Source of the DNA: Chitinophaga sancti
GTDB lineage: Bacteria; Bacteroidota; Bacteroidia; Chitinophagales; Chitinophagaceae
Reading direction: 5' to 3'
Length of the DNA stretch: 64,000 bases
NCBI RefSeq assembly: GCF_034424315.1
Contig: NZ_CP139972.1
Location: 2,852,001 to 2,916,000, forward strand
Translations under genes and position numbers: made by a program
The notes under the pieces: generated by a model
Seen by the model: the letters and a program-made list of their open reading frames with translations, nothing else
What the model was told of the DNA's origin: nothing
The model's database searches: none
Part shown: piece after piece, positions 1 through 16,026 of the stretch
Layout of the letters: each line of letters starts with the position of its first letter
Position numbering within the stretch: the first letter of the stretch is position 1

Positions 1-331
1 AGAACGACATCGGTAATCGTATCACATGATTGAACAAGCGCAGGGACAGATCATTCAATACCCGGTTGCTGATCCAGCTGTACATATACTCTGCCGCCAT
101 ACCCAACACCACCCTGAATACATAAGTGGCAAGTATGACAGACAATATCCCAAAGAGCATATCGGTCTTCTTTTCTACCAGGGCATGATCTATAATGATC
201 TTCAAAAAATAAGGAGATGCAAGGGCCGCCATATTGCCAAGTACCATCAACAACAATAACAGTGCTTCATACCTGATATAAGGCCTTAGGAAGACGAAAA
301 ATCGCTTCCAGATCGTACTCCGGGTTTCCAT
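1..331 (-). CDS. ABC exporter, N-terminal membrane-domain fragment (cut by window edge)
   Basis: The first 110 codons of a gene that runs off the left edge. The translation opens METRSTIWKRFFVFLRPYIR and continues with a hydrophobic helix (LLLLLMVLGNMAALASPYFL) and KIIIDHALVEKK, the usual start of a type I ABC exporter membrane domain of the MsbA/peptide-exporter kind. No C39 peptidase domain precedes the membrane domain, so this exporter would not cleave a leader itself. It starts 12 bp after the JmjC gene and ends the visible part of the long operon. The likely role is export of the cluster's product; this is inferred from context. The ATPase domain lies outside the window. Confidence 0.8.
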   Translation of the reverse strand, partial: METRSTIWKRFFVFLRPYIRYEALLLLLMVLGNMAALASPYFLKIIIDHALVEKKTDMLFGILSVILATYVFRVVLGMAAEYMYSWISNRVLNDLSLRLFNHVIRLPMSF

Positions 332-343
332 ATGTAATTGTTG

Positions 344-1156
344 TTAGGACTTGTTTAAATAGATACCAGCAATTTCCTGCATTTTCCTTGCAGCATTTGC
401 ATACCCCTGTTTCTCAAAGAACCGTAATATGACCTGGTAATTCTCCCCGTTAATAAAATTCTCTGACAGGGCCAGGCTAGGCTTCAATACAATCGCCCAA
501 TGCCAGATATTGGCCGGACAATAAATAAGTTCTCCCGGCTCCTGTATACATACCACAGGGGTTGTATCTCTCAGCATCGGAAAACTGGCAGGATCTGCCG
601 TCAAAGGGTCAAACTCCCCATTATAGATCAAGTGCTCCTGCTCCGGTGGAAAGAACAACCATAGTTTCTTTCCCTCAAACAATGCATTCCAGAAGCTCGA
701 TCCCCATATATCCTGGTGCAAATTACTCCTGGCCCCACTTGGACCAAAGTACAGGCATGACAACTCTATGCGCCGTGTCAATGCCCTGGTTGTATAATAA
801 TCCTTATACCAGCAATGAAATGCAGCAGGCACCTGGTATTCCCCCACCATATTATTCTCAAGGTGCAGGGTAGACTTCCCATAATAAGGCACCTCATCAG
901 CCGTATTATAAATATAGTCCGCATAAGCCGCCATCTCAGTCTGTATATAACTCACCTGACCATTCATCTTCCGGTCTGCCGACACCTTCCATTTGCCAAA
1001 CTTATCTGCCAGGTGTAGAATATTCCACTTCGGGTACGCAGCCCATTGTTGCATCACACCATCATACAATACAGGCTGAGACCTGTCTATATACTCCTCA
1101 GGAGTAGACGCACGGATGATGTTCCGCTGTTGCGGAAAAAGAGGAAGGAATGTCAT
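344..1156 (-). CDS. JmjC/cupin-like Fe(II)/2-oxoglutarate oxygenase
   Basis: A 270-residue protein with the cupin_8/JmjC layout. The metal ligands are visible as H147-x-D149 (in NLHQDIWG) and a distal H219 (in CPANIWHW), followed by the conserved-looking segment LALSENFI. Such enzymes hydroxylate protein or peptide side chains using Fe(II), O2 and 2-oxoglutarate. There is no signal peptide, so it is cytoplasmic. The ATG at 1156 is preferred over the in-frame TTG two codons earlier; it lies 8 bp after the carrier-like gene. Within the operon it is one of two cupins with intact ligands, so peptide hydroxylation is the likely job. The substrate is not shown by the sequence. Confidence 0.8.
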   Translation of the reverse strand: MTFLPLFPQQRNIIRASTPEEYIDRSQPVLYDGVMQQWAAYPKWNILHLADKFGKWKVSADRKMNGQVSYIQTEMAAYADYIYNTADEVPYYGKSTLHLENNMVGEYQVPAAFHCWYKDYYTTRALTRRIELSCLYFGPSGARSNLHQDIWGSSFWNALFEGKKLWLFFPPEQEHLIYNGEFDPLTADPASFPMLRDTTPVVCIQEPGELIYCPANIWHWAIVLKPSLALSENFINGENYQVILRFFEKQGYANAARKMQEIAGIYLNKS

Positions 1157-1164
1157 AAACAATA

Positions 1165-1431
1165 CTATAAAACTGCTGGAGAATGCCGGATGATCACCGC
1201 CGCCATATGCTCCAGGCTACTGAAAAAAAAGTAATCTACCTCATGATCAGGTATGGATATCTCAAACCTGGATTCGATAAAAGCTACCCATTGAAGGCTG
1301 GCACTATCATCCTGCGAAAAAAGGTATAAAAGGTTCAGTCTGATCAATTCATCTGTAAACAACTGCGGTACAGGCAAACGGGCTCTCAGTTCAGAAAGCA
1401 GGTAACTTTCCAGCGTTTCGGGGATGACCAT
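1165..1431 (-). CDS. acyl-carrier-protein-like small protein, probable loss of the pantetheine serine
   Basis: An 88-residue acidic protein resembling the second half of acyl carrier proteins: WVAFIESRFEISIPDHEVDY is followed by FFSSLEHMAAVI, matching the usual LExxFxIxIPDxE and the helix IV segment. In an ungapped alignment to a standard ACP, the phosphopantetheine serine position falls on an aspartate (DDSASL instead of DSL). A one-residue gap would bring a serine into place, so carrier function is undecided. It sits 20 bp after the permease and 8 bp before a JmjC oxygenase, which suggests it works with that enzyme, perhaps as a carrier or a protein-binding partner. Confidence 0.6.
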   Translation of the reverse strand: MVIPETLESYLLSELRARLPVPQLFTDELIRLNLLYLFSQDDSASLQWVAFIESRFEISIPDHEVDYFFFSSLEHMAAVIIRHSPAVL

Positions 1432-1451
1432 GCAGACAATATTTTAAATGA

Positions 1452-3773
1452 TTATTCTTTCAACACATGGATAGGATTGATCTTCTCCAACCGGAATGAA
1501 TAAAACAAAACGACCAGGAATATAATAAAGCCCATACATACCAGCGGGATTAGGAATGAGACAGGGTGCAGATATATACGATAAGGGAATTTATCCAGCC
1601 AGTTATTCAGGAACATATAAGATACCGGGATGGCGATCAATACGGCAATCACAATACATTGCAAAAAATCTTTGAAGATCAGTAATAACATCTGTTGCTG
1701 TGAACTGCCAAACACTTTCCGGATACCCATTTCCCGCATGCGCTTGATAATAGAAAAATTAACCAGCCCCAGGAAACCAGACATCGCGATCAGGATACAT
1801 ACAATGCTAAATAAAAATGACCGTCTGCCCAGGTTCGCTTCATCCTGGTACAAGGTATCCAATGAATCCTTTACCCAGAAATAAGATTCCTGCTTGCCAC
1901 TATCATTCCGTCCCAGCTTTTCCAGGTAAGCGATCGCATCAGCCTCACGGCCAGGCACAGGACGTATAAAGATATAATCAGCTTCTGAAGGATAATCTGC
2001 AATGATCAACGGATCAATAGGATTATACAGTGAGGTGAAGTTAAAGTCATCTGCAATGCCGGTAACCCGGCAATTATTGCCAAATACATTGATCGTTTTA
2101 TTGAGTATCGCCACTTCCCCGCCCATGATCTTTGCCGCTTTTTTGTTGATCACCACCGGCAGATCAGCACCAAATTCCGCGCCGGCATTACCTGTCAGCA
2201 ATTTTACTTTAAACGTCTTTACAAAGTCCTTATCCGTATACAACACGGCAAACCTTACACTATCAGCCGGCGTCTTACCAGTCCATGCCACATCCCCGGT
2301 CATCGGTGTACCACTGATCAGGTTCGAACTCGAAAAGGTCTCACTCGTTACAAAACTCTTACCCGCCAGCTCCTGTTTCAACAAGTCTATCTTCTGCACT
2401 TCATCCGGACTTAACTTCTTACCAATAATATTTTCTTTATTATACCCAAGATCCTTATCCAGCAGATACCGCACCTGCCTGTTCGTCGTAAAGGCTATAT
2501 ATATCAGGAATATGGAGATAAAGAACTGTAAGGTGAACAGGATCTTCGTGATGCCAATACCGCCAATCTTAGCCCCCTGATGGCTCTTCAACACGCTCAA
2601 CGGACTGAAGGAAGTAAGCCGCAAAGCAGGATACACGCTGGCCAGTAAGCCTGTCACCATAAATACGCCCAAAATAAATAACCAGAACTGCCACGATTGT
2701 ATAGGGAAACGAAGGTTTTCGGACAGGTATTCATTGATAAATGGCAACAGCAGGAAAGTAAGCAGCAATGACAACACAACGGATATAAACACCGTGATAT
2801 AAGCCTCACTGATCAGCTGCCATACCAAAGTACCCCTGCCAGCCCCGATCAGTCGTTTTACACTCAGCTCTTTGGTACGCTTAAATGAACTGGCAATATA
2901 CAGGTTCATAAAATTGATACAACCCATACCTAACAGGAAAAACGCAGCAACCATGAACAGGCGAACATATAATATGCGGCCTCCATCGACCTTCCCATTA
3001 TTAAAATTTGAATACAGATGAATATCCCTGAAAGGTTGAAGCAAGATCGATACAGCAGAAAGACCAGCTATTTTTTTATTGATACTATTTACTACGTTAG
3101 CAGCACTTGCCTTTTCATTCAGCTTTATATACGTTTCGTAATTATAACTGCCGATATGCTCATTGGTATCCTTCTCCATCGGAATAAAGAAATCACTGCT
3201 GAAAGTCGAATGCTCAGGAAAGCTTTCAAATACACCTTTCACCATATATTCCTTTTGGTTCAACGCAAGCACATTATTCTCCGACTGCGTACGCCAGTCT
3301 TTTCCATACAACCGCTCAGCCAATGACGAAGAAATAACAATGGCAGAAAGGTCGGTCAATGCTACATCAGCAGTGCCCAGCAGGAATGGCTGTGGAAAGA
3401 TCCTGAAAATATCGGCACTGGCATACCGCCCGTTTGACCGCGCTTGTTTACCGGCCGCTTTAATCAGACCTCCGCTAACCGGTTTTGTATAAGCAACAGC
3501 TTCCACACCAGCTACCCCCGGCCCCATTGCACGGATCAGTGGCAGCGATGTAGACCTGGCTGACCGCACTCCACCATTTACAGTATAATTGGTCACTACC
3601 TGGTAAACACTATCATTTTTCAGGAAAGTGTTGTAACTTTTTTCCTTGGTCACCCAAAGGATCAGGATAATGAACGACGCCATGCCAATAGATAATCCCA
3701 GCGTGTTAATTAAAAAAAGCAACCTATTACTCTTGTAGATCCTAATGGTTTTTTGCAAAAAAGTGGAGAGCAT
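1452..3773 (-). CDS. FtsX/MacB-type ABC transporter permease
   Basis: A 773-residue membrane protein with the Bacteroidota two-halves FtsX architecture: an N-terminal helix (LLFLINTLGLSIGMASFIILIL), a periplasmic MacB-like core domain, three helices around residues 275-400, a second periplasmic domain, and three C-terminal helices ending in FYSFRLEKINPIHVLKE. The segment MREMGIRKVFGSS is typical of these permeases. ATG at 3773 is preferred to the TTG at 3779. No partner ATPase gene is in the window. In this operon it may extract or expel the modified peptide or give self-protection; this is inferred. MacB-type permeases couple cytoplasmic ATP hydrolysis to periplasmic substrate movement. Confidence 0.85.
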   Translation of the reverse strand: MLSTFLQKTIRIYKSNRLLFLINTLGLSIGMASFIILILWVTKEKSYNTFLKNDSVYQVVTNYTVNGGVRSARSTSLPLIRAMGPGVAGVEAVAYTKPVSGGLIKAAGKQARSNGRYASADIFRIFPQPFLLGTADVALTDLSAIVISSSLAERLYGKDWRTQSENNVLALNQKEYMVKGVFESFPEHSTFSSDFFIPMEKDTNEHIGSYNYETYIKLNEKASAANVVNSINKKIAGLSAVSILLQPFRDIHLYSNFNNGKVDGGRILYVRLFMVAAFFLLGMGCINFMNLYIASSFKRTKELSVKRLIGAGRGTLVWQLISEAYITVFISVVLSLLLTFLLLPFINEYLSENLRFPIQSWQFWLFILGVFMVTGLLASVYPALRLTSFSPLSVLKSHQGAKIGGIGITKILFTLQFFISIFLIYIAFTTNRQVRYLLDKDLGYNKENIIGKKLSPDEVQKIDLLKQELAGKSFVTSETFSSSNLISGTPMTGDVAWTGKTPADSVRFAVLYTDKDFVKTFKVKLLTGNAGAEFGADLPVVINKKAAKIMGGEVAILNKTINVFGNNCRVTGIADDFNFTSLYNPIDPLIIADYPSEADYIFIRPVPGREADAIAYLEKLGRNDSGKQESYFWVKDSLDTLYQDEANLGRRSFLFSIVCILIAMSGFLGLVNFSIIKRMREMGIRKVFGSSQQQMLLLIFKDFLQCIVIAVLIAIPVSYMFLNNWLDKFPYRIYLHPVSFLIPLVCMGFIIFLVVLFYSFRLEKINPIHVLKE

Positions 3774-3782
3774 TTTCAAAAA

Positions 3783-4847
3783 TTAAGTATGGGTTTCCAA
3801 TAACACAATCTGGCCGGAGAATGCCACTTTCGATAAGAATATTGACTTTCTGATCACGCTGGCAATATATGGGTCCAAAACTAAAAACTTCCCATTATTT
3901 ATTATAAAATAATTTATAAGCGCATACCCGAAATATACATTCAACAGTGAGCGGGTATTAAAAAAATTACCTAACAGTAAGGTATCTACATGATCAAACA
4001 GCTTTGGTGATAACACCGGCTTTAAGGCCGGAACTCCCGGAACGACATGCATTTCAGGCACAAAGAAACTCATATTGAACAATACAGGAACACCTTTCAC
4101 AGCCTCTAAATGGCTGGCATACGAAACTATTTTGTAGTCCTCATTGCTCCATGTTAAATAATTATTACCAACAGGTGATCGATTGCTCTGGTAATGCAGA
4201 CTAAGGGCTTCTACCCCCGCATCCTCAATTGCCACTACTTCACTTGTAGCCAACCGCCTGCACAAAATACCTGAAAAAGCAGCTGCCGCATAACTGGTTC
4301 CTCCCCTGATCACCTGCCGGTCATGATCATACAACAATCGTTGATGAACGCCTTTCGCCAGCACGGTAATATAACTGTCGCCAATATAAACATAGCGATC
4401 TATCTCCTGTATCAGGCCAGCCCCTACCCCATATACAAATGGATAGGCTGCCGGATAGCATAACTTCGAACAATCAAAATGAGCGGCTGCTACGAGTAGC
4501 TTTCCCTGCTGATGACATTCCAGGCAACATTCCAGCAACTCAGCGGAGGGATTTTCAGTACCAAGTATACCCAGGCTGATATTGATGATCCGGACATCGT
4601 CCTGCGTAGCACAATACCGCAATGCCTTGCATAATAAGGGTACATTGATCTTGTCATCAGGTACCATTCTTACAGACAACAGATCAGCAGCAGGATAAAC
4701 CTGCCTGATCACATGGGCGATATTGGTACCATGAAACACGTTGCTATCATTAATATTACCCGCTGCTGACTCATAAATATTAACTTCCCTGATCCCACTC
4801 ACCCTGTCCATCAACACACCTTCATCTATTATCGCGACTACAGGCAT
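3783..4847 (-). CDS. subtilisin-like S8 serine peptidase, cytoplasmic, with altered oxyanion site
   Basis: A 354-residue protein with the S8 triad in order: D8 (VVAIIDEG), H39 (FHGTN) and S185 (RGGTSYAAAA). The usual oxyanion-hole motif AAGN is replaced by AAHF at residues 121-124, so the asparagine is absent. There is no signal peptide or prodomain; the catalytic part ends near residue 200 and is followed by about 150 residues of unrecognised sequence. Cytoplasmic S8 proteases in RiPP clusters often cut leaders or macrocyclise. It starts 2 bp after the upstream unknown gene, so the two are probably translated together. The missing Asn may mean reduced hydrolysis, or a binding or transpeptidation role. 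Confidence 0.85.
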   Translation of the reverse strand: MPVVAIIDEGVLMDRVSGIREVNIYESAAGNINDSNVFHGTNIAHVIRQVYPAADLLSVRMVPDDKINVPLLCKALRYCATQDDVRIINISLGILGTENPSAELLECCLECHQQGKLLVAAAHFDCSKLCYPAAYPFVYGVGAGLIQEIDRYVYIGDSYITVLAKGVHQRLLYDHDRQVIRGGTSYAAAAFSGILCRRLATSEVVAIEDAGVEALSLHYQSNRSPVGNNYLTWSNEDYKIVSYASHLEAVKGVPVLFNMSFFVPEMHVVPGVPALKPVLSPKLFDHVDTLLLGNFFNTRSLLNVYFGYALINYFIINNGKFLVLDPYIASVIRKSIFLSKVAFSGQIVLLETHT

Positions 4848-4849
4848 AT

Positions 4850-5707
4850 TTATGTGTTTAACAGGTATGCATAATCATACGTATCGTCATATACCTTATT
4901 GAGAATACCCAGTAAGGAAAGGAAATGTTTATAGTTAAAATTGCCCTGTGAGATGGATACATTATCTCCCACTTTCATAGCATAAGGTCGCTGCGCAACC
5001 ACCTGTTCATGGCTTTGCTGCTGCCAGGCCAATACAGCTTCACTGATCTCCTTCACCACCGGGTTCCGCTTGCTGCAGACCACCTCCGGGATCAGGCGGA
5101 TCTTGATCGCCTTAAATACAGTTCCGCCATAGTACTGCTCCTTCGTACCAATGGTCATCTCCTTGATATAGTAGGCCAAATGCGGTTGGTCAGCCAGGAA
5201 GGAAATACTGTTTGCAACAAATGTACACAGGTGATCTATAGCGATCAATATCTCGAACTGAAAGGCCGCCTTTACCCAATAGGAAATATTAATAAACCCG
5301 GCTGCCAGCTCCTTCTTTTCCACTATCCATTCGTGCACGGCATAACCATGCTCCTGAAAGAGGCTACACACTTTTTCTGCATGCAAAAACGACTCATACA
5401 CCCTGCCCGTTTCAAAACTATGCCCCCATTCGCCCATACTTACATCGGCAGCCGTCTTGAAAGTAATATCCGGCTGTACACGGTTCAGCATCTCCTTCAG
5501 AAATACAGACAACCGGTAACTCGCCGTATTGAGAGAGAGATAAGCTGCCTTATCCCTGTTAAAAGCCGCCTTCAGATCATGCTGCCTATTGATAAAATAA
5601 TACTGAAGATGCTGAGGTATCACAGTATCATGATACACCCTTTTATAATCCGGCACCTGTTGCAAAATAGCGGCTAACTCCATAGATAAGTGATTATTTG
5701 TTAGCAT
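4850..5707 (-). CDS. unknown protein of the peptide-maturation operon
   Basis: A 285-residue soluble protein that I do not recognise. It has no signal peptide, no membrane helix and few cysteines. Visible features are a tyrosine- and histidine-rich first half (HLQYYFINRQHDLKAAF), a middle segment ADVSMGEWGHSFETGRVYES, and a C-terminus ending in NKVYDDTYDYAYLLNT. Its start overlaps the end of the radical SAM gene by 14 bp, and its stop is 2 bp before the S8 protease start, so it is translationally embedded between the two. That position suggests a partner, scaffold or substrate-recognition protein for one of these enzymes. The function is open. Confidence 0.75.
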   Translation of the reverse strand: MLTNNHLSMELAAILQQVPDYKRVYHDTVIPQHLQYYFINRQHDLKAAFNRDKAAYLSLNTASYRLSVFLKEMLNRVQPDITFKTAADVSMGEWGHSFETGRVYESFLHAEKVCSLFQEHGYAVHEWIVEKKELAAGFINISYWVKAAFQFEILIAIDHLCTFVANSISFLADQPHLAYYIKEMTIGTKEQYYGGTVFKAIKIRLIPEVVCSKRNPVVKEISEAVLAWQQQSHEQVVAQRPYAMKVGDNVSISQGNFNYKHFLSLLGILNKVYDDTYDYAYLLNT

Positions 5708-7151
5708 GGGTCTGGTGCGCAGTATTCTTTGGAGTTGCTATCACTACCCTATCTTCATTCTCCTGCATCAGGTCATACATCTTTTCAAAATACGCCGGTA
5801 GCTGCGTCTTCCAGGCCGTACAGGGAAGTTCATTTTCTTTCAGCATATTCAATGTATCATATGCACATGACAAGCCTTCGCATACCGGGTTAAACTTACA
5901 ATTGTAGCAGGTAGGATGGACTGTGGTACGATTATAATCCAGGTATTTTCTGAAATCCTCCGGATCCCAGCTGGCAAACACCTGCTGGCCGGATGACTTA
6001 CGCGTATCATGGATCGTCTCCCAACACTTATGTATCGTACCCTCTGTATCAAATGTAAAACTATAGGGAGATACATAAGTGGCGCAGTCACTTTGCTTCT
6101 CAGGAAATTTCCATTTCAGCTTCGGTGGCTTCACATTTGTATGTCCGGGCCAGCTGGCAAATTTTTCAATGAGCAATTCACTAAAAGCATGTTCTGCTTC
6201 AAAGAACTCTTCCTGGGTCATAAAGCGCAGATCTGCGATATCAGCATCCTTATACGCACGCATCCACGCCAGCTTGATAGATACCTCCCTGAACCGCTGT
6301 GGCCAGATGCCATATGCCTGCAGATCATCCAGCAGGGCAGGCAAAGTAGCCGCCACTCTTTTGTCGGTATTGATACGGATATTCGCATTCATACCCAGCG
6401 GCATCATAGAAAGGTGCTCCAGTATCTTTTCATAATTTTTACCACCACGGCTCTTCAATGGACGGTACACATCATGCACCTCCTTACTCCCATCAATGGT
6501 GATCTGCACATCCTTCACCTGGTTTTCCTTCAGGAAAAACCAATTCTCCCTGTCAAGCAGGATCCCGTTCGTAATGATCGATGCATCATAAGCGATATTA
6601 TACTTCTCACAGAGCGGTATAAAATGTGCTGAAAGCTGGCGTATAGCTTCTTTATTGATCAGCGGCTCGCCACCGTACCATACAATGGAAAGAGAAGACC
6701 ACTTCTTAACAGGCGCTCTCTGGATCATATCTTCAATATAAGCCGCAATTCCTTCTACCACCTCCTTGTCACGCAGGCTCTTATTGGGTTTGATCACTTC
6801 AAAACAATACGGACAGCCCATATTACAGGTGATGGTAGTACCGATCGTCAAGCCGATGTGCGAATTATCAGTATACTTACGTAATTGACTGTTATGATAA
6901 TTTTGCTGATAATTAGCGATTTCATCCAGCTGGTTATCTACAAAAAAACCAAGTGATGCCAGCCTGGATAACTCCTCTTCCAACGCAGGATAAGCCGCTG
7001 GTGTAAATTCCGGCAACACCGATAGCTCGCTGACCACCTTTCCAAGGCGATTGGTCAACACCTGCAATCCACCACTGATGATATTATATAAAAGATAATC
7101 ACCGGAACTCCGGATAGGTATTAACTCATTATAATGGCTGAACTTTATCAT
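5694..7151 (-). CDS. radical SAM/SPASM peptide-modifying enzyme
   Basis: A 485-residue enzyme. The radical SAM cluster motif is C109-x3-C113-x2-C116 (TCNMGCPYCF). Downstream IVWYGGEPLI is the usual GGEP SAM-binding strand. The C-terminal SPASM region carries cysteines in DCATYV, HKCWE, CYNCKFNPVCEGLSC and PCTAW, enough for auxiliary 4Fe-4S clusters. Residues 1-95 (FSHYNELIPI...DYLLYNIISG...GFFVDNQLDE) resemble the small winged-helix leader-binding domain common at the front of such enzymes; this is inferred. It would install a radical-dependent change such as a thioether, C-C crosslink or epimerisation on a ribosomal peptide. The substrate is not in view. Confidence 0.9.
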   Translation of the reverse strand: MIKFSHYNELIPIRSSGDYLLYNIISGGLQVLTNRLGKVVSELSVLPEFTPAAYPALEEELSRLASLGFFVDNQLDEIANYQQNYHNSQLRKYTDNSHIGLTIGTTITCNMGCPYCFEVIKPNKSLRDKEVVEGIAAYIEDMIQRAPVKKWSSLSIVWYGGEPLINKEAIRQLSAHFIPLCEKYNIAYDASIITNGILLDRENWFFLKENQVKDVQITIDGSKEVHDVYRPLKSRGGKNYEKILEHLSMMPLGMNANIRINTDKRVAATLPALLDDLQAYGIWPQRFREVSIKLAWMRAYKDADIADLRFMTQEEFFEAEHAFSELLIEKFASWPGHTNVKPPKLKWKFPEKQSDCATYVSPYSFTFDTEGTIHKCWETIHDTRKSSGQQVFASWDPEDFRKYLDYNRTTVHPTCYNCKFNPVCEGLSCAYDTLNMLKENELPCTAWKTQLPAYFEKMYDLMQENEDRVVIATPKNTAHQTHANK

Positions 7152-7181
7152 GGATTCGGGTTTATTTATTGAACATGTATT

Positions 7182-9101
7182 TTAAAGCTGGATCAACTGC
7201 TTAGCATATTGCAACAGTTTATCCTGGTAAGGGGCCAGGTCCCTGGCATGGGTACGCGCCACCCATATATCCGGCATAATTCCTTTTCCTTCAGTATACA
7301 GTGCAGGGTCAAATACCAGCTCCCTGAAGGTGGTATGCAACTGCACCAATAATCCGGATGGAAAATGAAAAATAACAGGGCTTGCAATAGCCCCCATCGT
7401 TGGCGAATCACCTACAAGAAATGTATTAGGCCGTCTTTTCATCCCGAGTATGAACATCTCTGCTGCACAGGCAGTTCCTTTATCTGCCAGTATCACCACC
7501 TTTGCCATCGGGTTACACCGGAAAGGAAGTGGTAACGGCGTCACCAGCATGGACTCGTCAAACCAGGGATAATGCCGCTTGCCAAGACTGTATGCCTGGT
7601 CTGCAAATAAGGATAGCGTTTTCATCACGTCTGCACTATAGCCGCCGCCGTTACCCCTGAGATCGATGATTACACCCTTTATGCCGGGCCGGTTATAGAA
7701 GGCATTCAAAAACCAATAGTACTCGTCTCCTTTCCAGTTGCCCACCCTGATAAGCACCATATCCTTTGATAACCATTCCACGCCGGGCTGGGGCGAAAAG
7801 TTACTTCCGGCACGCACAGGCAGGGTATAAGGTATATGAACGGTCCTGATCTTCGTAGTACTGTCATCAGCAAGACTGATATGCAGGGTATCTGTTTCCT
7901 TACGGAATAAAAGTAAATTCGGATCTCCGGTGGCAGGTACCGGCAGCCCATCAAGTGCAACTACTTTAGCGCCGGGCTGAATAGAGTCCCGGTACTGGTC
8001 ATTTAACACTGCTGCCACGACTACATCATCTCCAATGGTACGTAGCCGCAAAGGCCCATTTCGCAACCTTGCACTACGCGGTTTCGCAGGTAGGAGGGGC
8101 AAGGTAATATCCAGGTGTGGATCACTATAACATCGCTTAAAAGTAATTTTGAGGTCTGCTAACAAGGCGGGATAAGGTCTGTTACTATCTTTAAATACAC
8201 TGTCCAGTGCTGCCTGTGCTGCTGCTCTATTGACCGCCCGTTGTTTTTCATAAGGATACAGCTCTGTAAACGACCGCATCAATCCTGCCAGCAGCTTTAC
8301 TTCAGCATCATGACTACTGTCACCAATAAAATTAACATAGCCGGTCAGGTAGCCTTTTTCCAATCCAAACTCCTCAAAAGAAACCGGCACCACCTGCCTG
8401 CGGGCAGAAGTACCATGTTCATAAAAGTAAGAAGAGTAATTACCAAACATCCGTGTATAAGTCTCCTGTGGCTGCCCCGTCAGACTATCGATCCAGGCAA
8501 AAACATTGCGTCCTGGCCGGATACGAAATTCATCTACCCTAAGTTCTCCCACTACCATCGCTGATCGTTGCGCAGGTTTCACCGGTACATATAACAGCAT
8601 AAAACACTTCACAGCAAGATTTTCCTCCTCAAAGGCCTCACCATTGCTATGCTCCCAGGTACTGATATAGGAAGCTACCGGGGGCTGAAATCCATCGTAT
8701 GCCACAGGTATTTCTTTATAGTGCCAGCTGCCATCTATTCCCTGGCAGGCAAGCATAATCTTCTTTACATTTTGCGTGTAGTAGGATAGGTTCAGCCTAC
8801 CTGCATCATAATTGAATGACAGTGTTCCCGCCGGCAACAATTGCTTAAACAGGAAAGTGTCGGACCCCCATTCTGCATCTGACAGCAGCTTGTTGGCTAC
8901 TTCAGGCAGACGGGTTCCTTTTTCATTGATGAGAATACCCAGGCTATCTTTGAGATCAGGAAAACGAACAGCACTTTTCACAAAAGCGTCCGGAGTCCAT
9001 TTATTCACTATTTCAGCAGGATAAGAGACCGCCGTCCACTGTGCACGAGCAACGGACACACAGAGGCAACAGCTTAACAACCAGGCATATAATAACTTCA
9101 T
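7182..9101 (-). CDS. secreted S41-like peptidase with Cys in place of the usual Ser
   Basis: A 639-residue protein with an N-terminal signal peptide (MKLLYAWLLSCCLCVSVARA). The C-terminal half is an S41/tail-specific protease fold: a PDZ-like segment near 355-400, VIIDLRGNGGGYSADV at 477-492, VVILADKGTACAAEMF at 535-550, and FLVGDSPTMGAIASP. In S41 enzymes the GTASASE-type motif carries the catalytic serine; here the aligned residue is C545. The Lys of CtpA-type enzymes is also not evident, as in other Bacteroidota S41 relatives. Being periplasmic, it could trim the exported product. It abuts the glycosyltransferase gene with no gap (stop and start adjacent). Confidence 0.8.
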   Translation of the reverse strand: MKLLYAWLLSCCLCVSVARAQWTAVSYPAEIVNKWTPDAFVKSAVRFPDLKDSLGILINEKGTRLPEVANKLLSDAEWGSDTFLFKQLLPAGTLSFNYDAGRLNLSYYTQNVKKIMLACQGIDGSWHYKEIPVAYDGFQPPVASYISTWEHSNGEAFEEENLAVKCFMLLYVPVKPAQRSAMVVGELRVDEFRIRPGRNVFAWIDSLTGQPQETYTRMFGNYSSYFYEHGTSARRQVVPVSFEEFGLEKGYLTGYVNFIGDSSHDAEVKLLAGLMRSFTELYPYEKQRAVNRAAAQAALDSVFKDSNRPYPALLADLKITFKRCYSDPHLDITLPLLPAKPRSARLRNGPLRLRTIGDDVVVAAVLNDQYRDSIQPGAKVVALDGLPVPATGDPNLLLFRKETDTLHISLADDSTTKIRTVHIPYTLPVRAGSNFSPQPGVEWLSKDMVLIRVGNWKGDEYYWFLNAFYNRPGIKGVIIDLRGNGGGYSADVMKTLSLFADQAYSLGKRHYPWFDESMLVTPLPLPFRCNPMAKVVILADKGTACAAEMFILGMKRRPNTFLVGDSPTMGAIASPVIFHFPSGLLVQLHTTFRELVFDPALYTEGKGIMPDIWVARTHARDLAPYQDKLLQYAKQLIQL

Positions 9102-10154
9102 TTATCCAAGTTGAATTTTTTCAGAGAAATTTTTAATAACGACTCCTTTTCCAAAACCATCCGCATTAGCCCGGAAGTTTTCACTTCGTCGCCTGTTCTT
9201 CATTAACTGGTAGTTTTGTATGATCGACTTCTTAAACAGTATCTCCTGGAAGGAAGATATGTCTGTCACCTCTTCATATATTTCATCTTCACGTATCAGC
9301 TGAGAGCTACCTTCCCGGTAACGCAGGGTGCTTGTTCCCAAACCTTCCAGCCATATCTCCTTCCCCGCCTGTAGCCATTGGCCCCGCAGCCATCCCTCCT
9401 CTTCAATATCCGGAAAATTGTGACCTGACTTTATTAAAGTACCTGCCTCTATATGCTGGTCGTCATATAAGAACAATACACGTGTCCTACCAGGTGCCAT
9501 CTTGCGTAAGAAAGCTCTTTTTAAATGGTGATAGTCGTAACTATTTTCTAACCGGCTCCGATCCTCATGATCCACATAAGCATTATCAAATTGCGCAGGC
9601 ATATATTCAATCCGCACATCAGCCATTTTCAGCCGCATATTCAGGTCAATGTCCTCATATCCATAACTCTTGAAGCGCTCATCAAAACCACCGATCAGTT
9701 CAAAATCTTCTTTGCGCAGGCACAAACGGCCGAGGTTATCCCGCTCCGAGTTGTCAAGATGAGCAATTAATGCAAGCGGGTCCGACGGCTGCATCTTATC
9801 ATTCATGTAGCACAGGTCCTCAGCAGCGATATGATAGTCCGCATTTACATTACAGAGGATATCACCAGTCGCCAGGCAGAAAGCCATATTACGCGAATGT
9901 GCATGAGAAAAGAAGCGGGGTTGTGGATCTATCAGCTGATAAAACACTAATAGTTCCTGTGCTATATACTCCCGAAAGTGGTCATATACCCATTGACTAA
10001 GTCCGTCGTCAGAATTGTAATCCAGTAATACGACTTCAGCATTGGGATATTGTTTGCAGGCGGCAATATTACCTGGCAAGGTTTCCTTCAGGGTGAACAG
10101 CCGGTTCATTGATACCGTACACAGGGATATCCTGGTGAATGATTTCTTGCACAT
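9102..10154 (-). CDS. family 2 glycosyltransferase with galactosyltransferase-like C-terminal domain
   Basis: A 350-residue GT-A fold enzyme: ISLCTVSMNRLFTLKETLPG at the N-terminus, VLLDYNSDDGLSQW, the metal-binding segment ILCNVNADYHI, and IGGFDERFKSYGYEDIDLNMRL as the acceptor-side ED motif of Glyco_transf_7C proteins. It has no membrane segment. Its start lies 86 bp inside the arginase-like gene in another frame; a later start would delete the first beta strand, so the overlap is probably real or reflects a frameshift near the arginase end. In this operon glycosylation of the peptide product is a reasonable inference. Sugar donor and acceptor cannot be read from the sequence. Confidence 0.8.
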   Translation of the reverse strand: MCKKSFTRISLCTVSMNRLFTLKETLPGNIAACKQYPNAEVVLLDYNSDDGLSQWVYDHFREYIAQELLVFYQLIDPQPRFFSHAHSRNMAFCLATGDILCNVNADYHIAAEDLCYMNDKMQPSDPLALIAHLDNSERDNLGRLCLRKEDFELIGGFDERFKSYGYEDIDLNMRLKMADVRIEYMPAQFDNAYVDHEDRSRLENSYDYHHLKRAFLRKMAPGRTRVLFLYDDQHIEAGTLIKSGHNFPDIEEEGWLRGQWLQAGKEIWLEGLGTSTLRYREGSSQLIREDEIYEEVTDISSFQEILFKKSIIQNYQLMKNRRRSENFRANADGFGKGVVIKNFSEKIQLG

Positions 10155-11040
10155 GGGTACAGGATGCTACGTCATAGATTCTTTGCAGGGATGCTATCAG
10201 CTGCGTTTCAATAAACTCCCACTGATCCTGGGGTGTGTACCCACTGTTGCGGGACCTGCAGATCGTGATCAATAAAGGTCTTTGGATCCGCTCTTCCAAT
10301 ATTGCGATCACCTGGTCGATACGTCGCTGTATCGTCTCCTGGCTCACCTTTAAAGGAGATTCACGGGGATCCTGTATACGGTTAAAGTAATAATAATAAC
10401 GGCCATCCTCACAAGCCGCATCCACCCGCCCAAAATCAAAGAAACGAATACGATGATAAGGCGTACGCATAAAAGAGGCATATTCTTCCGCTGTGATCTC
10501 AACACGCAATTCCCGTTGCAATGGATTCTGGATACAGGAGAAGTAATCAAGATCTATATCCAGCACCACGGGCCCAAAATGTTTGATATCGCTGATATGT
10601 TGTTTATAAAAACGATAGCGCATAGCACTGGTACTTTTTGTCTTTGCCTGGTCATCATACCGGTTTAACACGGCTTCCTGACCACCTGCCAGGAACGTTC
10701 CTTTGTTATTCTGAGAGCGCACATACATCTTGTGCGCTAACCGGTTTGTTTGTCCATGCCGTTGTTTGATCCAGTATATATCTTTGAAAATGCCTTCGTA
10801 AATAGCTGGTATGATAAAGGTGGCAATACCCAATTCATTGTACGTAAAATCCGCCACCTCCGCGCTATCAACAGTTGCCCCCGGCACCGGCATATTCAGG
10901 AAAGGGATGCCCATATCAGAGTGTTCATCGATATGCACGAGTATATTGCCCGTCCGTTTCATACGGTGCTGTGCATGCTTCCATACGAGGTATGCTTCAT
11001 GGTGTTCTTCTACTATGTAGATCGCGGTTTTCGCTTTCAT
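10069..11040 (-). CDS. UPF0489-family protein, candidate peptide arginase
   Basis: A 323-residue protein with the UPF0489 signature: H36-x-D38-E39-H40-x-D42 (HIDEHSDMG) and D161-x-D163-x-D165 (DIDLDYF), the residues expected to bind a binuclear metal centre in an arginase/deacetylase fold, plus CRSRNSGYTP near 261-270. Characterised members of this family in RiPP clusters (OspR of landornamide biosynthesis) convert arginine in a precursor peptide to ornithine. The surrounding peptide-modifying genes make that role likely here. It is cytoplasmic, begins 9 bp after a JmjC gene, and its 3' end overlaps the glycosyltransferase start by 86 bp. Confidence 0.8.
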   Translation of the reverse strand: MKAKTAIYIVEEHHEAYLVWKHAQHRMKRTGNILVHIDEHSDMGIPFLNMPVPGATVDSAEVADFTYNELGIATFIIPAIYEGIFKDIYWIKQRHGQTNRLAHKMYVRSQNNKGTFLAGGQEAVLNRYDDQAKTKSTSAMRYRFYKQHISDIKHFGPVVLDIDLDYFSCIQNPLQRELRVEITAEEYASFMRTPYHRIRFFDFGRVDAACEDGRYYYYFNRIQDPRESPLKVSQETIQRRIDQVIAILEERIQRPLLITICRSRNSGYTPQDQWEFIETQLIASLQRIYDVASCTHVQEIIHQDIPVYGINEPAVHPEGNLAR

Positions 11041-11049
11041 AATTTTTTT

Positions 11050-11973
11050 TTAGTGGATTTCGGACAACGAGGGTATTGACAGGAGGTTTTTTTTCTCCTT
11101 TGGCATTCCCTGGTGATGCAGGATCTTTGGATAAACTGCTGATGACAACATTTCTTTCAATCGTGCTTTCAGCTGTGCCAATTCAGAGCGCTTGCTACCG
11201 TGGATGTAAGCCTTTCTAAATAAAGGATCATCCTGCATAGCTGCCTGGGTGACATAATCTGCAAAACGCTTAATAAGGCTGGTATTTTGCATACCCAAAG
11301 TGATATGACAACTGAGCAGATCAGTCGTGGTTACTTCATGTACAAATCCACGGGGCATATACAGCAGGTCCCCTTGTTCCAGCGTAATATCGTACAGCAG
11401 CTCCAGCCCCGAGAAATCTACGCTCCTTTTATTCTGCGGCTCCAATGGCAGGTACACGCCGCTTTCAAAGATCTTCCAGTGCTTACTGCCTGACACCTGT
11501 ATGATAAACAGATCGTGCTCATCATAATGCACCTGGAAGCACTGTGCATGACTGGGTGTAATAAACAGGTTAACACCGGAACTACAATTGAACACCTCAT
11601 CCACACTTGTCACCAGGTCCTGCAATGGCTGATGGTATTGAATGGCATTGTGGATAATGATAGAAGCACGATCCTCCTGTAAGTGCTTAAATACCTTTTG
11701 TGGATCAATACCTGTCTGCCCATACACATAATCTGTATTCCAACCGGTCATATAATCTGCTGGCAGCATCTTCTTCGCGGCATGACTCATTGTAAGTTGC
11801 AAACCACCACCAATACCTGATTTTATAATATTGTCAACACCTGCCAGTGACAACAGGTTTGTATAATAATGAGGATCTCCCCGCCTGATCACCAGGGGGC
11901 TTTTTTCAAAGTAGTTCCTGATAAATTCCTGCTCATTAAAAGGAGCTATTAATTGTTGAAAATCAAACAACAT
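11050..11973 (-). CDS. JmjC/cupin_4-type oxygenase with intact metal site
   Basis: A 307-residue protein of the YcfD/NO66-like cupin_4 group. The core is recognisable: NLFITPSHAQCFQVHYDEHD, then FIIQVSGSKHWKIF and GDLLYMPRGFVHEV. Metal ligands H149-x-D151 and distal H212 are present. Relatives hydroxylate amino-acid side chains, often His or Arg, in ribosomal proteins; here the target is probably the cluster's peptide. It is followed 9 bp later by the arginase-like gene and preceded by a degenerate paralogue of similar length, with which it may form a heterodimer, since cupin_4 enzymes dimerise through their C-terminal parts. Confidence 0.85.
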   Translation of the reverse strand: MLFDFQQLIAPFNEQEFIRNYFEKSPLVIRRGDPHYYTNLLSLAGVDNIIKSGIGGGLQLTMSHAAKKMLPADYMTGWNTDYVYGQTGIDPQKVFKHLQEDRASIIIHNAIQYHQPLQDLVTSVDEVFNCSSGVNLFITPSHAQCFQVHYDEHDLFIIQVSGSKHWKIFESGVYLPLEPQNKRSVDFSGLELLYDITLEQGDLLYMPRGFVHEVTTTDLLSCHITLGMQNTSLIKRFADYVTQAAMQDDPLFRKAYIHGSKRSELAQLKARLKEMLSSAVYPKILHHQGMPKEKKNLLSIPSLSEIH

Positions 11974-11997
11974 ACTTTTTGCATTATTAGTAAGTGA

Positions 11998-12891
11998 TCA
12001 TTTAGCAGCACGCCTGCGCATAAAAGCATCCGTGATCGCCTCAAATGTCAGCCGGTCATCCAATACAGCTGACAGCTGCTCAATCGCTTCCTGTGCTTCG
12101 CTATCCTGCTGCGACATAAAAACCGTTTTCCGGAATGCAGCTGTTGTAAGACCAATATCTTTCAATACATCCAGCACCAGGCGTAAATAGTTCACAGGTG
12201 TGAACCGGGCCTTGACAAAAACACTTTGTTCATTGATAGCTACGGAGGTATAAACAAAACCAGCCGGGATATATAAAGTATCTCCAGGTCCGGTGGTACA
12301 TTCGCTTTCAAGGCTCAGCTCATCCATCCGGAAAGGTTGGTTGGCCTGCACGGACAGTGGATGATCGACAGGGCCACGATATATTTTCCACCTGCGTGTA
12401 CCTGCCAGCTGAAGAAAGAACAACTGCGCCGTATCATACACCGGGCATGTAGCTACAGCACCTTCCGCACTTAACCAGAGCTGCGTTTCGCAGGTACAAT
12501 TAAATGCATCGGACAACGCCCGCTGCAAAGCATCGATGCCTGCAAATTGCTGATGTATCCCCCTGATCATTACATTTGCGGATCCTTCAGTATAGAGGCG
12601 GAACAAGGCATCTATATCAACGCCATACTTATACTTCAGATGACCAGGCAAAGACCGGGATTGTATATATCGTTCCGGTGACAACTCACCTTTATCGTCT
12701 TCCAGCACCACAGTATACGCCACAGGCGACACTGCCTTTTCCAGTAATACACTAACATCATCAAAGAGAGGAAATCCGTGAAAGAAATTTGAGTCGCTTC
12801 TGTTGACCAAAAGAACAGACTGTTCAAAATGATCTTGTAGAAATGATTCATCTGAACAGGGCGACAGGAGGTCGGAAAGGGTATGGATCAT
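11998..12891 (-). CDS. degenerate cupin_4/JmjC paralogue lacking the metal-binding histidines
   Basis: A 297-residue paralogue of the next gene downstream. Aligned segments are FNCTCETQLWLSAEGAVATC / CPVYDTAQLFFLQLAGTRRWKIY / GPGDTLYIPAGFVYTS. The first ligand histidine is V151 (VYD instead of HYD) and the distal histidine is Y214 (FVYTS instead of FVHEV); D153 remains. Catalysis as an Fe(II)/2-oxoglutarate oxygenase is therefore unlikely. The reading frame is intact over its whole length, so the protein is probably kept for another task, such as binding the peptide or pairing with the active paralogue. It is the second gene of the operon, 44 bp after the antiterminator gene. Confidence 0.8.
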   Translation of the reverse strand: MIHTLSDLLSPCSDESFLQDHFEQSVLLVNRSDSNFFHGFPLFDDVSVLLEKAVSPVAYTVVLEDDKGELSPERYIQSRSLPGHLKYKYGVDIDALFRLYTEGSANVMIRGIHQQFAGIDALQRALSDAFNCTCETQLWLSAEGAVATCPVYDTAQLFFLQLAGTRRWKIYRGPVDHPLSVQANQPFRMDELSLESECTTGPGDTLYIPAGFVYTSVAINEQSVFVKARFTPVNYLRLVLDVLKDIGLTTAAFRKTVFMSQQDSEAQEAIEQLSAVLDDRLTFEAITDAFMRRRAAK

Positions 12892-12935
12892 AAAGTACGG
12901 TAATTGAAGGATAAGAGAGATAAGTACAGTTGTAC

Positions 12936-13439
12936 CTATACTACCGCCAGGTGCTGTCGGGCAACAACAGCAGTCACGATCTTCCCCAGCAGATCAACGG
13001 TAACAGTAACGTTCTTTTGCTTGTGTCTTACTACCTGGCATCCAATCCCCGCTAATGGACCTTTTGTTATTAATGCTTTTTGTCCCTGTGGCAGGCCAAC
13101 ATGCATGATCTCAATATGCCTTCCCCTTTCAGTGATCAATCTGATTTTATTGATTACATCGTTTGAAACGGTGGCAATCTTGTTCCCAAAACTCACGTAG
13201 CTACAATAACCATTCACATTTATACTGTTATAGTACCCTGAAGGTCCATCGATAAAAACAAACACATAGGATGGGTATAAGGGCATCTCTTTAATCAGAA
13301 TGACGTTTTTGCCTGTACCTGTCTCCTTTGTTGTTGGCAGAAAGTGTGGAATGTTCTTTTCCGACAGTTGCCTGGCTACTTTATGTTCATGGCGCGGTTT
13401 GGTATACATCACATACCAACCAATGACGAAGTGGCTCAT
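12936..13439 (-). CDS. NusG-paralogue antiterminator (UpxY/RfaH/LoaP-like)
   Basis: A 167-residue protein with an NGN domain (GWYVMYTKPRHEHKVARQL, then FLPTT and PLYPSYVFVF) and a C-terminal KOW segment (ITKGPLAGIGCQVVRHKQKN). The W-Y-V-x-x-T-K-P-R-x-E start is that of specialised NusG paralogues such as UpxY of Bacteroides capsule operons. The ATG at 13439 is preferred over TTG at 13445. It is the first gene of an operon exceeding 13 kb, the usual place for a dedicated processive antiterminator, so it probably lets RNA polymerase read the whole cluster. The autonomous housekeeping NusG would be longer and next to ribosomal genes. Confidence 0.9.
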   Translation of the reverse strand: MSHFVIGWYVMYTKPRHEHKVARQLSEKNIPHFLPTTKETGTGKNVILIKEMPLYPSYVFVFIDGPSGYYNSINVNGYCSYVSFGNKIATVSNDVINKIRLITERGRHIEIMHVGLPQGQKALITKGPLAGIGCQVVRHKQKNVTVTVDLLGKIVTAVVARQHLAVV

Positions 13440-13515
13440 TAGCAAATAGAGTTAACGTTGGTAAGTAATCGGGTAAAAAGTATGAACTATTCGAACAGGG
13501 AGGAGATAGCCAAAC

Positions 13516-13758
13516 TTGGGTAAATCGTACGGCTACCGCTACAGTAAGCTTTTATCTTACTTGAAAAACAATGAGTTAAGAAGTTTAAGTGATTTTGTAA
13601 AGAGGCGTCAATCTCTAAAAAAGCGGCAGATTATCATAACGACACTTTATGAATTACTTAGTAGCCGAAACTATAAAAAATATTTTATCAAACAAAAAAA
13701 CGTAGTTCATAAAAAACAGGTATTAAAGAGACTTACGATCCGGATCACTACCGGCTAA
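13516..13758 (+). CDS. possible small lysine/arginine-rich protein, start uncertain
   Basis: An 80-codon open frame with only a TTG start, in a stretch visibly more AT-rich than its neighbours. The product is strongly basic (SDFVKRRQSLKKRQ, NYKKYFIKQKN) and ends in RLTIRITTG. An ATG at 13482 opens MNYSNREEIAKLG in a different frame, which stops at 13521-13523 right inside the TTG frame. A +1 shift at CTT-GGG-TAA would join the two into a continuous protein starting MNYSNREEIAKLGKSYGYRY. It may be a frameshifted gene, a small regulator or chance. It is divergent from the antiterminator gene. Confidence 0.3.
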   Translation: MGKSYGYRYSKLLSYLKNNELRSLSDFVKRRQSLKKRQIIITTLYELLSSRNYKKYFIKQKNVVHKKQVLKRLTIRITTG

Positions 13759-15106: not shown

Positions 15107-15580
15107 ATGGCTTATCCAGCTTCCTTAATCGCTCAAATTTTTGTTAACAAAGGAATAGAAGAAGGCAACCCTGTAACCCAGATGAAACTTCAGAAGATGG
15201 TTTATTTCGCACATGGGTTATATTTAGCCGCCTACAATAAGCAACCACTTATAAAAGAGACATTTCAGGCCTGGAAATTTGGGCCGGTAGTGCCTGATAT
15301 ATACCATACTTATAAGTTTTATGGAAGCACACCCATTGCTGATACACAATGGGTATTAAGAGAAGATGTAAATCCGGATAATTCACCCATAGATGATAAT
15401 GCGAGAAAGATTATTGATTATACCTGGAATACATTAAAAGGAATCAATGCCGTGAAGCTTTCTAACTGGACCCACCAGGAAGGTTCTCCCTGGGCAAAGC
15501 ACTATGTACCCGGTGTAAATGAAACATTCATTCCAAACGACGACATAGGAACCTATTTTGAACGTTTCATAGCGAACTAA
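15107..15580 (+). CDS. Panacea-domain (DUF4065/SocA-like) protein, candidate antitoxin
   Basis: A 157-residue protein with the typical Panacea start: LIAQIFVNKGIEEGNPVTQM, LQKMVYFAHGLYLA, then FQAWKFGPVVPDIYHTYKFYG and a C-terminal LSNWTHQEGSPW. Panacea proteins serve as the antitoxin in many otherwise unrelated toxin-antitoxin pairs. The gene ends 2 bp before a short two-helix membrane-protein gene, which is then the natural toxin candidate. Domain assignment is firm; the toxin-antitoxin role is inferred from known family behaviour and the gene spacing. Confidence 0.85.
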   Translation: MAYPASLIAQIFVNKGIEEGNPVTQMKLQKMVYFAHGLYLAAYNKQPLIKETFQAWKFGPVVPDIYHTYKFYGSTPIADTQWVLREDVNPDNSPIDDNARKIIDYTWNTLKGINAVKLSNWTHQEGSPWAKHYVPGVNETFIPNDDIGTYFERFIAN

Positions 15581-15582
15581 AT

Positions 15583-16026
15583 ATGCCTCAATTTACTATC
15601 CAGGGAGTAGAACCTGCCATTGAAGCAGCTCCTTCAACCAATACATCTAATGGTTCCTCAACACTAATAGAAGAAGAAACCTATTTAGACCGGCAGCTGG
15701 AAAGACAGATCCGGATGGAAACGCTTGTTTCCCTGAAAGAAGGAAACAAAACACGCGCACAGAATAATGTGGAGCGGAAGAAATATGCCGGATGGATCTT
15801 TGTGTTAACCTGTATCTGGGCTTTCCTGATCTTTGTTTTAATCTTTTGTGTAGGGCTCTCTTTTATGACTATTTCAGATAGTATCATTGTCACCCTCATC
15901 TCTTCCACTACTATTAACTTCTTTGGATTTTTCTTCCTGGTAGTTAAGTATCTGTTTAATACAGGAAACGGCGGAGCAAGTAATGGTACTCCCCAGGAGA
16001 TGAGTAGTGGCACAATTACCGGCTAG
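15583..16026 (+). CDS. two-helix membrane protein paired with Panacea gene, candidate toxin
   Basis: A 147-residue protein. Residues 1-65 are polar and charged (LDRQLERQIRMETLVSLKEG). Two strongly hydrophobic helices follow at about 67-93 (IFVLTCIWAFLIFVLIFCVG) and 98-124, and then a short Gly/Ser-rich tail. It is no recognised family. It starts 2 bp after the Panacea gene, so both are co-translated. Membrane-acting proteins are among the known toxins neutralised by Panacea antitoxins, which makes this a plausible toxin, but nothing in the sequence proves toxicity. Confidence 0.65.
   Translation: MPQFTIQGVEPAIEAAPSTNTSNGSSTLIEEETYLDRQLERQIRMETLVSLKEGNKTRAQNNVERKKYAGWIFVLTCIWAFLIFVLIFCVGLSFMTISDSIIVTLISSTTINFFGFFFLVVKYLFNTGNGGASNGTPQEMSSGTITG

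Follow-up and report, generated by a model that had tools for sequence, protein, structure and literature searches.

What does the long minus-strand operon at the left end of this stretch of Chitinophaga sancti DNA make, and by which steps? The stretch analysed (the window) comprises 64,000 nucleotides of contig NZ_CP139972.1 (assembly GCF_034424315.1, positions 2,852,001 to 2,916,000 of the forward strand), and the host genome is a single contig of 8.42 Mb. A first-pass annotation, made from the letters alone, had read the genes here as an operon for a ribosomally synthesised and post-translationally modified peptide (RiPP) with a peptide arginase, and had expected a short precursor containing Arg to be encoded a little past position 1. 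Such a precursor is found at -1629 to -1459, with three Arg residues in its C-terminal part; it belongs to the FlmA family and the arginase to the FlmR/OhkR family, which supports the RiPP assignment. With a probability of about 0.8, the product of the operon (19 genes, ~19.7 kb) is a RiPP of the DD(I/V)LF (flm/ohk) family, made by the modification pathway proposed below.

Precursor and family membership

The precursor, MTNQEESKQLAEPKDLGKAVEEVSLEVLESLCSGFARRPRGCGSYSSVGENDDILF (56 residues), is encoded next to the ATP-binding cassette (ABC) exporter gene, ends in DDILF and has its core Arg residues at R37, R38 and R40. Its alignment with OhkA and FlmA covers the full length; at E values up to 1, FlmA is its only NCBIfam match and nothing matches in Pfam. 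Since the precursor, the arginase and the radical S-adenosylmethionine (SAM) protein pass the curated NCBIfam cut-offs of FlmA (NF052472), FlmR/OhkR (NF052474) and FlmE/OhkG (NF052473), respectively, the cluster is a Chitinophaga-type member of the DD(I/V)LF (flm/ohk) orphan RiPP family, with ornithine (Orn) expected in its peptide. A search of the same genome for a second precursor found none (next best match 12 bits).

The study of this family (Pfeiffer et al., ChemBioChem 2025, PMC12703449) describes 30 arginases with 57 DD(I/V)LF-type precursors and demonstrates the conversion of core Arg to Orn by FlmR and OhkR, at R43 and R45 in the case of OhkA1; it does not settle what the product is, where cleavage occurs or what the motif does. 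In the alignment with the C. sancti precursor, the two OhkA1 positions correspond to R38 and R40. The published sites agree, by eye, with the loci compared here: a 70-residue precursor of locus L007 has Arg at R43 and R45, and a 56-residue precursor of L010 at R43 and R46. A hairpin, GGAGAGCC...GGCTCTCC, lies 3' of the C. sancti precursor gene, as it does in C. rhizophila and in genome G608, and may determine how much precursor is made relative to the enzymes encoded downstream.

Extent and gene content of the operon

Between window positions 1 and 13445 there are 13 tightly packed open reading frames (ORFs) on the minus strand, with a largest gap of 44 bp (12892-12935) and some neighbours overlapping. 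The thirteen one-strand genes of the first-pass annotation are thereby borne out by ORFs and Pfam domains. Its gene set and packing stand, but its left end does not: the operon continues for ~6.3 kb past the window edge to about -6291, where the next gene lies on the other strand. Beyond the window the ABC exporter gene is completed at -1414 and is followed by six co-oriented genes, the precursor first. For these, the window coordinate is the coordinate in locus L002 minus 16000. From 13445 to about -6291, the 19 genes are:

12936 to 13445, minus strand: NusG-like protein, specialised antiterminator candidate (PF02357, 48.8 bits, cut-off 22.2)
11998 to 12891, minus strand: pseudo-JmjC_2 (PF08007, 53.1 bits)
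11050 to 11973, minus strand: JmjC_2 oxygenase with intact Fe ligands, HYD and distal H (PF08007, 90.9 bits)
10069 to 11040, minus strand: peptide arginase (UPF0489) of the FlmR/OhkR family with three motifs (NF052474, 405.8 bits, cut-off 350)
9102 to 10154, minus strand: glycosyltransferase of GT2/GT7C type (PF10111, 45.1 bits, and PF02709, 34.6 bits, above cut-off)
7182 to 9101, minus strand: S41-fold peptidase with Cys545 in the nucleophile column (PF03572, 62.8 bits, cut-off 24)
5694 to 7151, minus strand: radical SAM/SPASM maturase of the FlmE/OhkG family (NF052473, 658 bits, cut-off 500)
4850 to 5707, minus strand: 285-residue protein with a predicted HopA1/LxmY lyase-like fold
3783 to 4847, minus strand: S8 subtilase with intact triad (PF00082, 25.8 bits, cut-off 21.8)
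1452 to 3779, minus strand: MacB/FtsX permease (PF12704, 97.7 bits, and PF02687, 89 bits)
1165 to 1431, minus strand: carrier-like 88-residue protein without the phosphopantetheine Ser (weak NCBIfam carrier matches, best E 0.0012, below cut-off)
344 to 1162, minus strand: Cupin_8 oxygenase with intact Fe ligands, HQD..H (PF13621, 68.1 bits)
331 to -1414, minus strand: ABC exporter, 1 to 331 inside the window (PF00664 and PF00005 above cut-off over the whole gene, L002:14586-16331)
-1629 to -1459, minus strand: precursor, 56 residues (NF052472, 51.9 bits, cut-off 30; L002:14371-14541)
-2046 to -1690, minus strand: 118-residue protein with a signal-like start and no family in the Pfam scan
-3148 to -2069, minus strand: acyltransferase-fold protein (from the predicted model of the C. 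rhizophila orthologue)
-4459 to -3170, minus strand: LicD-family protein (PF04991, 54.2 bits, cut-off 22.6), its N-terminal part weakly GT25-like, below cut-off
-5349 to -4456, minus strand: group-1 glycosyltransferase (PF00534, 26.8 bits, cut-off 26.4)
-6291 to -5362, minus strand: CarboxypepD_reg-like protein (PF13715, 41.7 bits, cut-off 32.2)

No Pfam family is assigned to the 285- and 88-residue proteins. Elsewhere in the window, positions 15107-16026 of the plus strand hold two adjoining ORFs, the first of which we take to resemble Panacea/DUF4065 antitoxin-type proteins.

Related loci and the conserved core

Which of these genes belong together can be asked of related loci. Nineteen were chosen by radical SAM similarity, so the radical SAM gene is present in 19 of 19 by construction. 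They come from a genome-contig scan with 25 aligned radical SAM proteins (11 of 78 loci analysed, L005-L015), from same-genus genomes (9 analysed of the 47 with any radical SAM match, at E <= 1e-90, C. sancti included) and from same-order genomes (G856 kept; G843, with no S41, S8 or tag precursor nearby, dropped). Two species were found twice and counted once, C. rhizophila (L005/G616) and C. hostae (L008/G597), and L119 was replaced by the longer L121. Contig-scan loci extend for 10 kb in either direction, and a gene missing near an edge (e.g. ABC in L011 and L012) may have been lost to the cut. A gene counts as present from 50 bits upwards; by this rule the carrier proteins of L010, L011, L012, L015 and G633, which are remote, score 0.

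On this basis the S41 peptidase is present in 18 loci, the S8 subtilase and the ABC exporter in 17 each, the arginase in 15, Cupin_8 in 14, FtsX in 10, the NusG-like protein in 9 and the 285-residue protein in 8. JmjC_2, the acyltransferase-fold, the 118-residue and the carrier-like proteins follow with 6 each, and GT2, LicD and the group-1 glycosyltransferase with 5, 4 and 3. S41, S8 and the exporter are near-constant, and the arginase is an accessory. The clusters of C. rhizophila and G608 are nearly collinear with that of C. sancti, G608 lacking the 285-residue gene only.

Every locus holds at least one candidate precursor (32 in total) and the gene set co-occurs in relatives, the opposite of the pattern that the first-pass annotation had named as telling against it (no precursor, or genes not found together). 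The precursors end in [DE][IV]LF in 29 of 32 cases, a share that is partly by construction, as most were located via this C-terminal pattern; for L013, L015 and G597 alone, every small ORF was read instead. Two or more Cys are present in 31 of the 32. In two precursors (G597 and one of G633) a start codon further inward was chosen. The exceptions are both copies in L013 (DILV), G597 (DSLLF) and G604 (one Cys). The arginase-less loci, namely G622, G650, G856 and L015 from a Gemmatimonadetes metagenome-assembled genome (MAG), all keep the radical SAM protein, S41, S8, the ABC exporter and the [DE][IV]LF end. This pattern suggests that the DD(I/V)LF tag goes with the radical SAM protein, S41, S8 and the exporter rather than with the arginase.

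A Trp-halogenase-like gene is found in G622, G650 and G856 (PF04820 at E 5e-112 in G622 and 7e-110 in G856; by similarity in G650). Their precursors contain Trp, as do none in the 15 arginase loci, and it is possible that these arginase-less clusters make halogenated RiPPs. The halogenase-like proteins adjoin the exporter (L123:6002-9222 in G622, L121:1686-5047 in G856, L139 ~5935-7551 in G650), and DUF6734 is also present at the G622 and G856 halogenase loci. In L015:7550-14018, outside Bacteroidota, a FlmE-like radical SAM protein (33%) stands with a Cys-type S41, an S8 and a pentapeptide-repeat protein; the precursor there has 54 residues and four Cys and ends in DEILF.

Such clusters are rare. 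FlmE exceeds its cut-off in 7 of the 79 genomes from the genus and in 1 of 396 from the order, a profile of six radical SAM proteins finds 1 of 395 same-class genomes at E 1e-50 (C. sancti included in each count), and FlmA is above cut-off in 1 of 395 same-phylum genomes, C. sancti itself, beside one weak sub-cut-off match with an internal stop; the order, class and phylum sets are samples.

Could the locus instead serve a surface polysaccharide or lipid, with the arginase acting on a small molecule? The NusG/UpxY-like paralogue at its front, two glycosyltransferase genes, LicD, the PatA/LpxM-fold protein and the permease would suit such a role. However, an FlmA-family precursor lies inside the operon, the glycosyltransferase and LicD genes occur in only 3-5 of 19 loci while S41, S8, exporter and precursors are near-constant, and no polymerase or flippase family is among the Pfam matches of the 19 genes, so that this explanation is very improbable. 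In G650 (L124:6406-9703), a LicD-type homologue stands beside what looks by eye like a LicC-type nucleotidyltransferase, ~4 kb before the RiPP genes.

Arginase and oxygenases

The arginase carries EEHHEAY, DEHSD and LDIDLDYFSC, the motif set of PF12640 (DXHXD, EEH(N/H)EAF, LDIDLDYFSC) with Tyr in place of the last Phe of EEH(N/H)EAF. In a family-level search it was found in 1 of 195 genomes, that of C. sancti. The two active cupins and the pseudo-cupin counted by the first-pass annotation are confirmed at the level of Fe-ligand motifs: these are intact in Cupin_8 (HQD..H) and in one JmjC_2 (HYD..H), and the other JmjC_2 is degenerate. It has lost both Fe-binding His, and all of the 5 loci inspected contain a copy of this kind.

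Cupin_8 occurs in 14 of 15 arginase loci vs 0 of 4 arginase-less ones (p 0.0013), and an Arg follows the first Cys of every precursor in 15 of 15 vs 1 of 4 (p 0.004), although the loci share ancestry and these Fisher p values overstate independence. The distribution of Cupin_8 tracks that of the arginase and fits an oxygenase acting on Arg or Orn. In PMC12707348 and PMC12257519, Orn produced by UPF0489 arginases is the substrate that BipG and PbsQ hydroxylate.

A cysteine S41 peptidase and the C-terminal tag

The S41 enzyme has the S41 domain (PF03572) and lacks the serine nucleophile: in an alignment to 6vbb (Peptidase S41), Cys545 falls on its Ser. The nucleophile column holds Cys in 18 of 18 cluster S41 proteins and Ser in all 12 other S41 proteins of the C. 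sancti genome found by PF03572; His329, Asp327 and Glu548 are invariant across the 18. Among 79 same-genus genomes, an S41-subfamily profile has eight matches at E <= 3.2e-97, all among the nine radical SAM genomes, and the next four (E 2.3e-29 to 6.9e-22) carry Ser, their 4-kb loci containing no tag precursor. The ninth radical SAM genome, G597, is without a Cys-type S41; a Ser-type S41 ~4 kb upstream of its exporter is taken as unrelated. The idea that S41 and tag vanish together held only in part, as G597 fits it (no Cys-S41, DSLLF) and L013 does not (Cys-S41, DILV).

S41 peptidases often act at C-termini, and the enzyme is therefore proposed to handle the DDILF tag. A serine-peptidase fold with Cys as its nucleophile would lean towards transpeptidation or cyclisation. 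By eye, the N-terminus is signal-like, so the enzyme should act after export. It may be, though the odds fall somewhat short of even, that the family is wider than the arginase-defined one of PMC12703449. It would then consist of an FlmE-like radical SAM protein, a C-terminal [DE][IV]LF tag and a dedicated Cys-nucleophile S41 that reads the tag after export and cuts or exchanges it, with one branch using an arginase and Orn-hydroxylating oxygenases and another tryptophan halogenases, and would reach as far as a Gemmatimonadetes MAG.

A minority possibility of some weight is that DD(I/V)LF, perhaps modified, is part of the mature product and that S41 serves, for example, spent-leader clearance or self-protection. 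PMC12703449 leaves room for this, the acidic and Asn residues of the tag could be substrates of Cupin_8 or JmjC_2, and L013 keeps its Cys-type S41 despite a DILV tail. Yet the precursors, for all the variety of their cores, vary least in their final residues, which is what a recognition tag would show, and these residues persist where arginase and Cupin_8 are absent.

Other proteins of the operon

The predicted HopA1/LxmY lyase-like fold of the 285-residue protein recalls the class V lanthipeptide dehydratases LxmK/LxmY and CaoK/CaoY. Were it an active phospho-Ser/Thr lyase, the peptide would also be dehydrated and cyclised as in class V lanthipeptides; this is unlikely, and no kinase family, of APH type or as a kinase partner, is among the Pfam matches of the 19 genes. 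Its sequence relatives are only itself and the C. rhizophila protein, its matches to PDB sequences are at chance level (best E 0.41), and Pfam gives nothing convincing. A fusion of this domain into long S8 proteins was considered and rejected (no hhalign match).

The first-pass annotation had also named a carrier-like protein. The weak carrier matches of the 88-residue protein agree with this, but its phosphopantetheine Ser is missing: all 6 close relatives (C. sancti, with Asp, counted among them) have Asp or Glu in this column, 5 of 5 more distant ones have Ser, and a role as active acyl carrier was dropped on this ground. For the acyltransferase-fold protein, a model of the C. rhizophila orthologue (pLDDT 72.8, 4 sequences, moderate confidence) matches PatA (E 2.9e-9) and LpxM (5e-8), but the acid of HX4[DE] is missing from all 5 sequences inspected, the G608 copy not being among them. 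In view of this loss and of the moderate model, active LpxL-type acylation is no more than a possibility.

An ops-like leader element precedes the NusG-like gene:

13531 to 13542, minus strand: GTAGCGGTAGCC, ~90 bases before the NusG-like gene

The pattern GTAGCGRYAGCC, drawn by eye from leaders including those of relatives (full match in C. rhizophila and G608, 11 of 12 positions in G633), has its sole match in the window here and none in 100 shuffles. The element is similarly placed upstream of the NusG-like genes of L005, G608 and G633, as if an RfaH/UpxY-type antiterminator loaded there.

Comparison with known systems

The first-pass annotation recognised no precedent for this gene combination; the flm/ohk type was in fact published in 2025 and is modelled in NCBIfam. 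The ohk cluster of Ohtaekwangia koreensis (OhkA1-2, OhkR) shares the precursor leader, the LESLC..F.(R/K)RPRGC core and the D-D-(I/V)-L-F end, a radical SAM protein (57%) and an arginase (52% identical), and homologues of S41, the 285-residue protein, S8, FtsX, the carrier-like protein, Cupin_8, ABC, JmjC_2, the 118-residue and the acyltransferase-fold proteins. Unlike C. sancti, it has two precursors rather than one, two Arg in the motif rather than three and another gene order, and GT2/7C, the group-1 glycosyltransferase and LicD were not found in the 21-kb ohk stretch. The flm cluster of Flagellimonas meridianipacifica (FlmA1-3, FlmR) has the radical SAM protein (43%), arginase (38%), S41, 285-residue protein, S8, Cupin_8, ABC and precursors ending in DILF. 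No acyltransferase-fold protein was found in the flm stretch compared, the flm carrier keeps its Ser and is joined by an ACPS-family protein, and the flm S8 carries a DUF1611 domain. At L010:18125-21458, flm has an SES-motif carrier, the ACPS-family transferase and a protein with, by eye, a condensation-domain-like start; flm may add a non-ribosomal building block to its RiPP.

The landornamide-type (proteusin) clusters, with OspR, to which the first-pass annotation looked, are not the nearest relatives: they share a PF12640 peptide arginase but differ in precursor type, the C. sancti precursor matching no nitrile-hydratase-type leader family in NCBIfam or Pfam at E values up to 1. In Qhp maturation, QhpD is the radical SAM enzyme, QhpE the subtilase and QhpF the exporter. 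The same three functions stand together here, and QhpE is the best NCBIfam match of the C. sancti S8, which is nevertheless below its cut-off (83.1 of 165 bits); the radical SAM protein reaches 57.8 of 453 bits on the Qhp model. Selidamides use a GNAT-type acyltransferase for Orn or Lys side chains; no GNAT family is among the Pfam matches of the 19 genes, and the acyltransferase-fold protein is PatA/LpxM-like. The biphenomycin-type clusters bip and pbs likewise combine a UPF0489 arginase, a subsequent JmjC/cupin Orn hydroxylase and a radical SAM cross-linker, but they use a B12-dependent radical SAM protein, a multinuclear non-haem iron-dependent oxidative enzyme (DUF692) and a TldD-type protease, none of which is among the Pfam matches of the 19 C. 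sancti genes.

Proposed pathway

By analogy with R43 and R45 of OhkA1, the arginase would convert core R38 and R40 to Orn, with R37 a further candidate. Seven further steps are proposed, ordered by falling likelihood. (1) The Cupin_8 and JmjC_2 oxygenases would hydroxylate the new Orn or adjoining residues, like BipG and PbsQ. (2) The radical SAM protein would link the core, most likely via the conserved Cys pair C32 and C42. (3) Cytosolic cleavage close to C32 by the S8 protease, whose N-terminus is by eye not signal-like, would take off the leader. (4) The peptide would leave the cell through the ABC exporter, and (5) the exported Cys-nucleophile S41 would remove or exchange the C-terminal DDILF tag. 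(6) The glycosyltransferases, the LicD protein and the acyltransferase-fold protein may add further groups, and (7) the NusG-like protein, loaded at the ops-like element, may sustain transcription through the long operon.

Several observations weigh against this reading, in addition to the shared ancestry of the loci. L013 has a Cys-type S41, yet both its precursors end in DILV; the G604 precursor has a single Cys; G608 is without the 285-residue protein and G619 has an arginase without a recognised Cupin_8. The acyltransferase-fold and carrier-like proteins are without classical catalytic residues. Finally, PMC12703449 reports that Ala in place of the tag left FlmR unaffected and made OhkR less efficient, so the tag may also be read by the arginase in the ohk branch.

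Implications

The kind of system was already known; the analysis adds the precursor, the full operon, evidence that the tag is independent of the arginase, and the cysteine S41. No claim that the cysteine S41 is unpublished is made, as the literature search on it was dominated by unrelated S41 hits. The locus supplies an almost complete inventory of parts for a RiPP family of which the 2025 paper leaves the product, the core and the function of the tag open. A Ser-to-Cys swap fixed across an S41 subfamily would interest protease and RiPP engineers, and a tag that, as suggested here, travels with the radical SAM protein, S41, S8 and the exporter makes the question of its role testable with one protease and one peptide. 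For the peptide itself, the pairing of arginase and Cupin_8 predicts hydroxy-ornithine.

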